Assembly (NCBI GenBank): GCA_902570785.1
Contig: CACFZK010000001.1
Location: forward strand, 62,001-126,000
Direction of reading: 5' to 3'
DNA: 64,000 nucleotides
Source: an uncultured Pelagibacteraceae bacterium
GTDB lineage: Bacteria > Pseudomonadota > Alphaproteobacteria > Pelagibacterales > Pelagibacteraceae
Position numbers and translations under genes: made by a program. Below the pieces are notes generated by a model. It was not told where the DNA came from. It searched no databases and saw nothing but the letters and a program-made list of their open reading frames with translations. Shown one piece after another: positions 16,108-19,108 of this stretch (positions are counted from its first letter, which is position 1; each line of letters starts with the position of its first letter).

Positions 16108-17028
16108 GTGGAAAAAAATATATATATAATTCACGAAAACGATGAATGGCTTATTCCATTAAGAGAGAGTTTTAAAAAAATCAAAGCTCCTTTTAAAGAA
16201 TGGCACATGGATAAAGAAAGTTTTGATTTTAAAAAATCTCCACCAAATGGTATTTTTTATAACAGAATGAGTGCTAGTGCACATTCACGGGGACATAGAT
16301 ATGCTCCAGAAAATACAAGAGATGTTCTTGATTGGTTGGAAAAAGATAAAAAAAGAGTTGTAAACAATTCAAGAGCCTTGGAATTAGAAATAAGTAAACA
16401 AAAACAATATGAACAATTAAAGAAATTCGATATAAATTTTCCAAAAACATATTATGCTAAAAATAAAGACGAGATCCTAGAAAAATCAAAAAATTTTAAA
16501 AAACCATTTATTACAAAACATAATAGAGGTGGACGAGGTCTCGGAGTAAAATATTTTACAAATTCAAATGAACTTAAAAAATATATTAATGGAAATTTTG
16601 AAAACTCTATTGATGGGATTACTTTATTACAGGAATATGTAGAATCTGATCCAAAAATAATCACAAGAGTGGAGTTTGTAAATGGAAAATTTTTATATGC
16701 AGTTCGAGTTGATGCTAGTGAAGGTTTTGAGTTGTGTCCCGCTGACGCTTGTAATGTTGAAGAAAAGTTTTGTCCAACAAATCCAGATGGTAATAAATTT
16801 ATGATTGTAAAAGATTATAGCAATCTTGAACTTAAAAAATATGAAGATTTACTTAAATCAAACAATATTGAAATTGCCGGTATTGAATATATTAAAGGTA
16901 AAGACGGAAAACATTATACTTATGATATCAATACAAATACAAATTATAATTCAATTGCAGAGAGAAAGAGTAATCTAAAAGGAATGGATTCTATAGCAAC
17001 ATTCCTTTACAATGAATTAAGGAAATAA
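16108..17028 (+). CDS. ATP-grasp (RimK/glutathione synthetase-like) ligase of unknown substrate
   Basis: A 306-residue ATP-grasp protein; the fold couples ATP hydrolysis to carboxylate-amine ligation. Residues 1-90 form the N-terminal part with no close motif. The glycine-rich ATP loop is at about 139-147 (NRGGRGLGV), the hinge LLQEYVES at 173-180, and the Mg-binding end is DINTNTNYN at 273-281. The latter has Asp-Ile-Asn where many relatives have Glu-Ile-Asn. Cysteines 210, 215 and 222 cluster after the hinge. Start is GTG at 16108, chosen because no in-frame alternative lies upstream and a promoter ends six bases before it. It sits between umuC and a TPP riboswitch. I do not recognise the substrate. 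Confidence 0.75.
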   Translation: MEKNIYIIHENDEWLIPLRESFKKIKAPFKEWHMDKESFDFKKSPPNGIFYNRMSASAHSRGHRYAPENTRDVLDWLEKDKKRVVNNSRALELEISKQKQYEQLKKFDINFPKTYYAKNKDEILEKSKNFKKPFITKHNRGGRGLGVKYFTNSNELKKYINGNFENSIDGITLLQEYVESDPKIITRVEFVNGKFLYAVRVDASEGFELCPADACNVEEKFCPTNPDGNKFMIVKDYSNLELKKYEDLLKSNNIEIAGIEYIKGKDGKHYTYDINTNTNYNSIAERKSNLKGMDSIATFLYNELRK

Positions 17029-17033
17029 ATTTT

Positions 17034-17097
17034 AAGGGGTGTCTACAAAGACTGAGATTATACCCTTTGAACCTGACCGGTAATTCAGTGAGGGAAT
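17034..17097 (+). promoter_or_regulatory. TPP riboswitch (THI element)
   Basis: A thiamine-pyrophosphate aptamer. P2 pairs GGGT (17037-17040) with ACCC (17062-17065). P3 is a minimal hairpin GTCT-ACAA-AGAC (17041-17052). The conserved CTGAGA is at 17052-17057 and TACCCTTTGAACCTGA at 17061-17076. P4/P5 pairs CTGA (17073-17076) with TCAG (17085-17088), followed by the conserved AGGGAA (17091-17096). That last motif doubles as the ribosome-binding site, two bases before the ATG, so ligand binding should directly hide it. There is no separate expression platform and no terminator. Confidence 0.93.
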
Positions 17098-17967
17098 ATG
17101 AAAATAAAATTAGCACTTGAGTGGTTTATAAATCCTGATCACCTACCCTTTATTGTGGGTCTGGATAAAGGTTTATATAAAAAAAATAATATCGATTTAC
17201 AAATTATTGAGCCTGAAGGACATTATGATGGTTTTAAAGAACTTGCGAAAAATAATATTCAATTAGCAACTAATGAGCCTCTACACTTAATTGAAAAATA
17301 TCAAAATAATATTTGCTCAATTGGAAACTTTTTTGAAACTAATGGAGGTATTATATTTACCGCTAAAGGATATGAAAATTTAGTTAATGGAAAAGAAACT
17401 AAAATTACTTCACCGGTAAGTAATCCTGTTACAGATAAAATAGCTAATGATATTATTCAAAGACATTTGAAAAAAATTAATAAAACCAACAATGAGATAA
17501 AGATTGTAGCTAATGATTTTTATCATATTAAACATCTAAAGGCTGGATTTGATGCTGCATGGTTATGTTTTGAAAACTTTGAGGGTGTTGAGTCAAAATT
17601 AGAAGGTTTGGATGTAAAAAAATTGTATTTAGAAGATGTTGAAATACCTAATTTTTGTGCACTAGACGTATTTGCTTCAAAATCTTTTGCTAGTGCTAAT
17701 AAGAATTTGGTAAATGACTTTAAATCTATGACACAGCAAAGTATCAAAATTTTAAGTTCAGACTTAGATTATTCTAAATCTTCTTATTATTCTTATACTA
17801 AAACAAAGCCTAGTCCATTAATGGATAATATTATTAAAGATACAATTCATAGATTTAAAAATCCTTTTGATAAATCTAAAAATAAGTGGAAAAATTTGCA
17901 TAATTACGTAGTTACACAAAAAATTTCAAATATATCTGATGATCAATACTCAGATATGTTTATTTAA
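17098..17967 (+). CDS. THI5/NMT1-like protein, thiamin-pyrimidine related, no signal peptide
   Basis: A 289-residue NMT1/THI5-like domain with periplasmic-binding-protein fold: ALEWFINPDHLPFIVGLDKGLYKKNNIDL resembles the W-N-P-H start of ThiY and yeast Thi5, given here only as family pattern. It begins MKIKLALEW with no signal peptide or lipobox, so it should be cytoplasmic, and no ABC transporter genes adjoin it. H63 aligns with the histidine that yeast Thi5 consumes to make HMP-P. The partner PLP lysine aligns with Asn59, and the Cys-rich iron motif is reduced to one Cys (NFCALDV). Control by the TPP riboswitch ties it to thiamin. It could be an HMP-forming enzyme, a pyrimidine-binding protein or a salvage factor. 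Confidence 0.8.
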   Translation: MKIKLALEWFINPDHLPFIVGLDKGLYKKNNIDLQIIEPEGHYDGFKELAKNNIQLATNEPLHLIEKYQNNICSIGNFFETNGGIIFTAKGYENLVNGKETKITSPVSNPVTDKIANDIIQRHLKKINKTNNEIKIVANDFYHIKHLKAGFDAAWLCFENFEGVESKLEGLDVKKLYLEDVEIPNFCALDVFASKSFASANKNLVNDFKSMTQQSIKILSSDLDYSKSSYYSYTKTKPSPLMDNIIKDTIHRFKNPFDKSKNKWKNLHNYVVTQKISNISDDQYSDMFI

Positions 17968-19108
17968 TTGGAGACTTGCCAATTAAATGAAGATTTACAA
18001 CTGATGCTGCTATATCAGTGGATCTATCAGTCCTAAATTTATTTATTACACTTTGAGTTTTGGTAATTTGGTTTTCTAAATGTTGTTTATTATTTAAAAG
18101 ATGATTAACTGTATTAAAAATATTGTTTGCATTACAATTTGATTGCAATAATTCCGGAATAATTTCTTCATTAGCTGCAATATTAATTAAATTTGCAAAT
18201 TTTACTTTTACGAGCATTTTAATAATAAAGAAATTAATAAAACCCATCTTATATATTATTATTGAAGGAATTTTTGCTTTACAAATCTCCAAAGAAATTG
18301 TGCCAGATTTAGCCACTGCAAACATCGAAGAGTCTAAAATATGAGATTTAATTTTTTCATCACCTATTGCCCCACAATTTTTTAGACCCTCTTTTAATAG
18401 CAAATTTTGGATTAACTGAACATGTTCTGTGGTAGAATGAAAAACAAAAAATAATTCTTTATATTTTTCATTCATCTTTTTGACAAAATCAATTAATATT
18501 GGTGTCAAAACATTAATCTCCGACAATCTACTTCCTGGAAAAATAGAAAAGATTTTCTTATTTTCTTTTATAATTTGGCTTATATCAATTTTATTTTTTT
18601 CTTCTTTTTCAAGCAAAGGATGGCCAGTCACAGTAGATGGAATTTCTTCTTTATCAAAATATTGTTTTTCAAAGGGAAATAATAATAAAACATGATCTAA
18701 AAAAGATTTAAGCTGCTTTACTCTATATTCTCTCCAAACCCAAACTTGTGGTGCTACAAAATGAATTGTTTTTATACTTGGAACTTTTTTTTTAACTTGT
18801 TTTGCTACACGTAACGTAAAATCGGGACTATCAACTGAAAAAAGAATATCTGGTTTAAATTTAATAATTTCTTTTACTGTTTCATTTATTTTGCTCTTTA
18901 ATTTGAAAATATTTAACAAAACTCTCGTAAATCCAAGATATGTAATCTCTTTTAAATCATAAAGTGATTTAATACCTAAAGCATTTAAATGTTCTCCACC
19001 AACAGATAAATATTCTATATCTGATCTTGAGTTTTTAAGTTTAGAAATAACCTTTGAGGCTAATTTATCTCCAGAAGGCTCACCAGTTAGTATAAATATT
19101 TTTTTCAT
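17960..19108 (-). CDS. lpxB: Lipid-A-disaccharide synthase
   Basis: GT19 glycosyltransferase joining UDP-2,3-diacylglucosamine and lipid X. Motifs: FILTGEPSGDKLASKVI at the start, FSVDSPDFTLRVAKQVK, HFVAPQVWVWREYRVK, LLFPFEKQYF, TGHPLLE, SIFPGSRLSEI and AVAKSGTISLEICKAKIPSIIIY. Length 382 is normal. It is the last gene of the long rpsB-lpxB unit; its start overlaps the msrA stop by four bases and its stop overlaps the convergent THI5-like gene. Confidence 0.97.
   Translation of the reverse strand: MKKIFILTGEPSGDKLASKVISKLKNSRSDIEYLSVGGEHLNALGIKSLYDLKEITYLGFTRVLLNIFKLKSKINETVKEIIKFKPDILFSVDSPDFTLRVAKQVKKKVPSIKTIHFVAPQVWVWREYRVKQLKSFLDHVLLLFPFEKQYFDKEEIPSTVTGHPLLEKEEKNKIDISQIIKENKKIFSIFPGSRLSEINVLTPILIDFVKKMNEKYKELFFVFHSTTEHVQLIQNLLLKEGLKNCGAIGDEKIKSHILDSSMFAVAKSGTISLEICKAKIPSIIIYKMGFINFFIIKMLVKVKFANLINIAANEEIIPELLQSNCNANNIFNTVNHLLNNKQHLENQITKTQSVINKFRTDRSTDIAASVVNLHLIGKSPIK

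Follow-up and report, generated by a model that had tools for sequence, protein, structure and literature searches.

Our analysis points to a cytoplasmic, non-canonical enzyme of the THI5 fold, encoded behind a TPP riboswitch in a group of SAR11 bacteria, which would supply HMP or HMP-P and thereby replace the import of HMP by ThiV. The gene lies in the window, by which we mean the whole 64,000-nucleotide stretch that was analysed from an uncultured Pelagibacteraceae bacterium (assembly GCA_902570785.1, contig CACFZK010000001.1, positions 62,001 to 126,000). That the protein provides HMP or HMP-P is argued from three observations: it and the HMP importer replace each other downstream of the same switch, searches of these genomes found no ThiC, and members of the ThiD and ThiE families are present. 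The catalysis itself is the conjectural part, and we give the whole reading a probability of about one half.

Results

The riboswitch and the gene

The earlier note on this DNA, made from its letters alone, described a TPP aptamer ahead of a 289-residue THI5/NMT1-like protein, and both parts of that description are borne out (Table 1). The PF09084 (NMT1/THI5-like) profile matches the open reading frame at 2.3e-26, and an NCBIfam search of the protein returned one weak match, far under its cut-off. The aptamer matches RF00059 with 49.2 bits (E 4e-8 in a 2-kb search and 4.6e-9 in a search of the whole genome), though this is below the Rfam gathering score of 54.3, and it is the sole RF00059 match in its own genome. 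Because the score lies under the gathering score, the default Rfam scan of the window gave no match at all, and it was a permissive scan that found the aptamer. Scores below the cut-off are usual among these SAR11 relatives: matches at E <= 0.001 occur in 84 of 101 genomes (the own genome and 100 relatives), only 11 of them over the cut-off, and the thiV-linked TPP elements of the SAR11 genus likewise fall under it.

Table 1. Features of the window at the THI5-like gene, with positions in the window.
Feature	Position	Strand	Basis or remark
RimK-like ATP-grasp gene	16108..17028	+	Upstream neighbour, before the riboswitch; slot marker
TPP riboswitch aptamer (RF00059)	17025..17113	+	Covariance-model match; conserved core about 17034-17095
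GAGGGA	17090..17095	+	3' conserved segment of the aptamer and Shine-Dalgarno-like; two bases before the ATG at 17098
THI5-like protein, 289 aa, no export signal seen	17098..17967	+	ORF, PF09084, N-terminus by eye, AlphaFold2 model
Codons N59-E60-P61-L62-H63	17272..17286	+	N59 at the Thi5 Lys62 position, H63 at the Thi5 His66 position
C187 codon	17656..17658	+	Single Cys where Thi5 has CCCFC; Ser in 33/35 representatives (window included)
lpxB	17960..19108	-	Convergent neighbour, right border of the slot; in 25/31 genus genomes

That the aptamer is more than a chance match follows from its placement, since a TPP match directly precedes the THI5-like gene in all 16 genus genomes that hold the gene, and from the invariance of the CUGAGA and ACCUG cores across 28 aligned SAR11 elements. 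The folding energy of the window aptamer lends weak support (z -2.4; 3 of 200 shuffled sequences reach so low an energy), and the closing helix P1 is absent from its lowest-energy single-sequence fold.

The ribosome-binding site of the THI5-like gene appears to be part of the aptamer. The ATG falls within the modelled 3' end of the aptamer, and the GAGGGA segment is kept in 14 of the 16 gene-linked elements, with AAGGGA in L010 and GAGGAA in L015. Judging from this anatomy, bound TPP would hide the ribosome-binding site; at low TPP the aptamer would open, the site would be exposed and translation would be switched on. The gene itself is under purifying selection, with a median dN/dS of 0.066 over 120 pairs from 16 orthologues. 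Further upstream, between 12241 and 16056, lie genes that by eye resemble LexA, gltX, a peptidase like UmuD and a polymerase like UmuC; in this streamlined genome the last two may be an SOS polymerase pair.

Exchange with thiV in the SAR11 genus

The THI5-like gene was found in 16 of the 31 genus genomes searched. In the 25 of these 31 in which lpxB is assembled, the slot next to lpxB is occupied by the THI5-like gene in 16, by thiV in 7 and by tenA in 2; the remaining genomes (G008, G009, G018, G022, G027 and G030) have neither the THI5-like gene nor thiV, lack an assembled lpxB and are excluded from the 25. Eight genus genomes show a TPP match without the THI5-like gene, and the gene behind that match is thiV in all of them except G003, where it is TenA. 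The riboswitches before the THI5-like gene and before thiV are near-identical. The ATP-grasp gene serves as a marker of the slot because six of the seven genomes with thiV also have it upstream, directly before the aptamer; in every one of the seven, lpxB comes after thiV. In G029 a TenA gene identified by Pfam adjoins lpxB (L216 2619-3284) and no TPP match was found before it; the TenA of G003 (L161 2087 onward) is named by its likeness to that of G029. TenA beside thiV has already been reported in Pelagibacterales (PMC10881298). One holder, G006, has an extra gene of 188 aa in the interval from the THI5-like gene to lpxB (L013 2373-2939); it is encoded on the lpxB strand, and its product has a signal-like N-terminus.

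Genome-wide, ThiV was found in none of the 16 holders of the THI5-like gene, in 7 of the 31 genus genomes and in 29 of 30 genomes from other genera of the family; in the one exception, G031, the TPP match runs off the contig. This mutual exclusion has a P of 0.0024 if the genomes are taken as independent. It rests on few events, because on the lpxB tree (24 of the 25 loci, the partial L232 being left out and one row cut to 194 aa) two changes suffice to explain the three slot states. A single replacement, or a small number of them, may thus account for the exchange, with the outcome maintained by selection. In two genomes of a sister family (G062 and G063, loci L177 and L178), the TPP aptamer stands before genes that by eye look like an ABC binding protein and permease, not before thiV.

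The earlier note takes it as established that cultivated SAR11 has no thiC and depends on HMP or a related pyrimidine. ThiC was found in 0 of 101 genomes, 28 of which are at least 90% complete, and the same search was positive in 13 of 14 control genomes; the genomes are incomplete (86.4% for the own genome), and absence from any single one is weak evidence. The own genome holds a ThiE family member (PF02581, 155 bits) and a member of the ThiD family (PF08543). Across the 16 holders PF02581 exceeds 100 bits in 12, and PF08543 is likewise found in 12.

The slot also bears on the main rival of our reading, a cytoplasmic salvage enzyme that would turn another pyrimidine (a product of thiamin breakdown, for example AmMP or FAMP, or a nucleoside-like form), brought in by a general transporter, into HMP, much as TenA does for AmMP. 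The presence of TenA in the slot of two genus genomes fits such a role, whereas in SAR11 it is the importer itself that is replaced. On balance we consider salvage unlikely, with the relatives outside the genus contributing to both sides.

Relatives outside the genus

A scan of named genomes, in which loci were retrieved by the query peptides ALEWF[ITL]NP or P[EKD][GD]HYDGF, gave 140 stretches and 116 confirmed relatives. The best 80 of these 116 were taken; 16 of them carry the SAR11 gene, and the remaining 64 include Psychrobacter, Campylobacterota, xanthomonads, Elioraea, Flavobacteriaceae and more. Apart from the own genome, G124 alone gave a match better than E 1e-20 in a 398-genome sample of the phylum. 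One locus labelled Neomarinimicrobiota MED589 (L055) carries the SAR11 gene at 90% identity together with the same riboswitch motif, and is probably misbinned.

Several of these relatives sit among thiamin genes. In 16 of 23 Campylobacterota loci and in both Flavobacteriaceae loci, thiE or thiD is encoded on the same strand at a distance of no more than 40 bp; this applies to 0 of the 39 remaining non-SAR11 loci, where a distant ThiE may be missed with Campylobacterota references. Three loci (L109, L121 and L126) contain in-frame fusion ORFs of ThiE and the THI5-like protein, of which only that of L126 is confirmed by Pfam; they come from metagenome bins and have unfused near relatives (L111, L083, L119), and sequencing errors are a possible cause. 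In a Flavobacteriaceae bin (L108) the order is TPP aptamer, thiE, THI5-like gene, thiM, tenA and thiD, and ThiC was not found in that bin.

The earlier note had also proposed riboswitch co-occurrence among relatives as a check; it is seen in all 16 holders of the SAR11 genus and in part beyond the genus. Of 12 loci scanned with cmscan, six (L063, L085, L093, L116, L108 and L124) have a TPP aptamer upstream of the gene or of its operon, and all three Psychrobacter genomes searched (G505, G507, G536) have one before the THI5-like gene, at 48.8 to 52.9 bits and thus under the cut-off, the sole other TPP match in each preceding thiC. No TPP match was found in 18 of the 40 holder genomes searched outside the genus.

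Outside the genus, ThiC turned up in 32 of the 46 holder genomes searched, with a fragment only in G540; the 46 are 45 genomes from the 64 non-SAR11 loci and G124, and the TPP search covered 40 of them. A TPP aptamer stands at the gene or operon in 6 of the 14 holders without ThiC and not in the other 8. Since 32 of the 46 encode ThiC, most holders outside the genus need no second source of HMP-P, and a strict replacement of ThiC by the family everywhere was rejected. ThiV was found in none of the 64 non-SAR11 loci.

A salvage enzyme would account for the co-occurrence with ThiC, it matches the operon of L108, where the thiM-tenA-thiD neighbourhood is typical of salvage and speaks against supply by synthesis, and its fold is shared with the FAMP-binding ThiY. 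It has to be set against the lack of an ABC ATPase motif within 4 kb in 76 of the 80 loci, the lack of ThiV in the 64 non-SAR11 loci, and the ThiE fusion in Campylobacterota, whose genomes mostly have ThiC and which in our judgement looks like a context of synthesis.

Export, transporter partners and phylogeny

The absence of a signal peptide and of a neighbouring ABC transporter, both read from the window by the earlier note, largely recurs among the relatives. No ABC transporter, and no ThiXZ partner, stands beside the window gene, and no export extension or hydrophobic N-terminus was seen by eye in any of the 80 loci (the best 80 of 116, with start codons uncertain in GC-rich loci). Exported PF09084 proteins among L019-L046, which we label ThiY-like and whose function is putative, generally show an N-terminal extension. 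Four of the 80 loci have an ABC ATPase motif within 4 kb, or within the flank where that is shorter, and in one of the four it lies on the opposite strand. When the criterion was loosened and the distance set at 1.5 kb, ABC motifs were seen in 4 of 80 loci, compared to 19 of 25 ThiY-like control loci, a set that leaves out L018, L024, L025 and L030. The ABC-bearing loci that were read gave no sign of ThiXZ, their transporter genes having binding proteins of their own or lying on the opposite strand.

An unrooted tree places the 45 family rows in a clade apart from four ThiY-like rows and one Thi5 (L025), with support of 100/99; the rows comprise 35 representatives under 80% identity and 10 more, plus the five others, and L063 contains 8 unknown residues. 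The Thi5 of L025 (1492-3264), from the 1.3-Mb alphaproteobacterial genome G437, has the canonical GLKAMIH and GCCCFC motifs, and directly after it comes a gene that by eye encodes a Thi4-like thiazole synthase. Membership in ThiY was rejected, with no export signal seen, no ThiXZ partners and a separate clade.

These results bear on the possibility, raised in the earlier note as the outcome that would diminish its proposal, that the protein serves an ABC transporter as a binding component of the ThiY type, having lost its signal or being exported by another route. A predicted structure as close to ThiY as to Thi5 (described below) would suit such a component, as would the Elioraea loci L093 and L116, in which genes for an ABC ATPase and a permease come after the riboswitch and the THI5-like gene; neither of the corresponding genomes, G516 and G530, yielded ThiC. 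The Elioraea transporter, however, comes with its own exported binding protein, and the ABC genes of L085 follow a gene that by eye resembles a metal-binding protein. The missing export extension, the contrast in ABC motifs with the control loci and the fusion to ThiE, a cytoplasmic enzyme, make a transporter component very improbable. Given that neither an export signal nor an evident partner transporter accompanies the protein, the simplest explanation is an enzyme whose substrate arises inside the cell or enters freely.

Residues and predicted structure

In yeast Thi5, PLP forms an imine with Lys62 and His66 is consumed together with Fe(II) and O2, according to PMC10848271. From an alignment by eye, the earlier note had put Asn59 at the position of the PLP lysine, H63 at that of the sacrificed His and a single Cys where the Cys-rich motif stands. 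The ungapped HMMER alignments agree, pairing Lys62 with N59 and His66 with H63; a MAFFT alignment that includes ThiY-like rows agrees on the Lys62 position and puts the canonical His two columns earlier than H63. Both N59, an Asn in place of the PLP-binding lysine, and H63 are invariant in all 37 family sequences. Where Thi5 has CCCFC the family alignment has NFSAL or NFCAL, and C187 is not a kept remnant of that motif because nearly all representatives have Ser there (Table 1). With the PLP lysine and CCCFC missing, the chemistry of yeast Thi5 cannot run unchanged, and a canonical Thi5 identity was rejected.

Thirty-five residues are invariant across the 37 sequences, the polar ones being E8, W9, N12, D14, H15, H42, Y43, D44, N59, E60, H63, N160 and E162. 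Part of this invariance is built in by the retrieval peptides and by the selection of the best 80 of 116 relatives; N59, E60 and H63 lie outside both peptides. A His in the H63 column is also found in 14 of the 25 exported ThiY-like proteins, so that H63 alone is no proof of Thi5 chemistry, and N160 and E162 are common to all 25. If the protein is an enzyme, H63 may stand in for the sacrificed His66, the invariant polar residues would form an active site different from that of Thi5, and the HMP or HMP-P produced would pass to ThiD and ThiE.

The AlphaFold2 model, built with the 37 family sequences, has a pLDDT of 95.9. Structure comparison gave Z 27.4 for Thi5 (rmsd 3.0, 279 aligned) and Z 26.7 for ThiY (rmsd 3.3, 280 aligned), and Foldseek puts ThiY first. 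In the comparison with Thi5 and ThiY that the earlier note had proposed, the two matches tie, and the predicted structure does not separate Thi5 from ThiY.

A further possibility is a soluble, non-catalytic protein that would bind HMP or HMP-P, concentrating the pyrimidine or handing it to ThiD or ThiE. Its fold is that of a binding protein, it shares N160 and E162 with the ThiY-like proteins, it has lost the Thi5 residues, and adjacency or fusion to ThiE would be natural for it. By itself, however, a binding protein would not furnish HMP where, as in these SAR11 cells, the searches found neither thiC nor thiV, and the residues invariant across the 37 sequences, in part a product of the retrieval peptides, exceed in our judgement what a binding site usually needs. 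We regard this role as distinctly less probable than salvage.

Discussion

Our data strengthen the suggestion of the earlier note that the protein is cytoplasmic, linked to thiamin and perhaps an enzyme that forms HMP or salvages a pyrimidine, through the exchange with thiV, the thiE and thiD neighbours, the thiE fusions and a clade apart from the ThiY-like proteins. Among making, salvaging and binding the pyrimidine, the roles that the earlier note had also considered, supply of HMP or HMP-P by a THI5-fold enzyme is our preferred reading, and the holders would then be independent of HMP. It is weighed against the ThiC encoded by most holders outside the genus, the absence of Lys62 and CCCFC, and a precedent from algae; salvage of another pyrimidine is the main rival, followed by a binding or delivery protein.

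The protein resembles several known systems without coinciding with any. The Thi5 of Legionella is Lpg1565. With the Thi5/NMT1 HMP-P synthase of yeast (PDB 4h65, 4esx) the window protein shares the fold, the lack of an export signal, the link to thiamin and a His at the His66 position; unlike it, it has Asn for Lys62, no CCCFC and a clade of its own, outside of which the canonical bacterial Thi5 of L025 falls. It resembles ThiY, the FAMP/HMP-binding protein of ThiXYZ (PDB 3ix1), and 4nmy in fold, in PF09084 and in the WFxNPDH and NxE motifs, whereas its family differs from ThiY in having no export signal seen, no ThiXZ seen, a linkage to ThiE and ThiD, and HYDG, NEPxH and FxTxGG signatures of its own. 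ThiV, the SSSP-type HMP symporter of SAR11, occupies the same slot behind the same riboswitch in sister species and presumably serves the same purpose, HMP supply, yet it is an unrelated membrane transporter (PF00474) and the THI5-like protein is soluble.

The algal SSUA/THI5-like proteins (PMC4260697, PMC9544697) likewise combine PF09084 with a TPP aptamer and have no assigned function, but they are eukaryotic and mostly have signal peptides; the comparison is with their description, not their sequence. According to these two papers, thiamin synthesis in diatoms can do without the TPP-linked PF09084 proteins, which also do not suffice for it; E. huxleyi, with such a PF09084 gene and without THIC, does not grow without thiamin or a pyrimidine. 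In these algae the TPP-linked PF09084 proteins do not support HMP synthesis, a precedent that urges caution.

SAR11 is regarded as HMP-auxotrophic, and a 2024 paper (PMC11452348) calls ThiV conserved across SAR11; neither Thi5 nor NMT1 occurs in the main text of that paper. Among the matches listed from open-licence PMC, titles and abstract openings mention neither a THI5-like gene in SAR11 nor a ThiE fusion. More tentatively than the supply of HMP or HMP-P itself, the family may represent a third route to HMP-P, a cross-phylum clade of the THI5 fold that dispenses with ThiC and with the Lys-PLP/CCCFC chemistry, possibly works over multiple turnovers and would make this SAR11 group pyrimidine-prototrophic; this wider claim is possible but doubtful.

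Through this clade, a protein so far uncharacterised becomes linked to the metabolism of the thiamin pyrimidine in Campylobacterota, Psychrobacter, Acetobacterales and Flavobacteriaceae. Within SAR11, one group may make a building block of vitamin B1 that other SAR11 must take up and, with the THI5-like gene in the thiV slot of 16 of the 25 resolved genomes, this would shift which organisms count as suppliers and which as consumers of HMP in the ocean.
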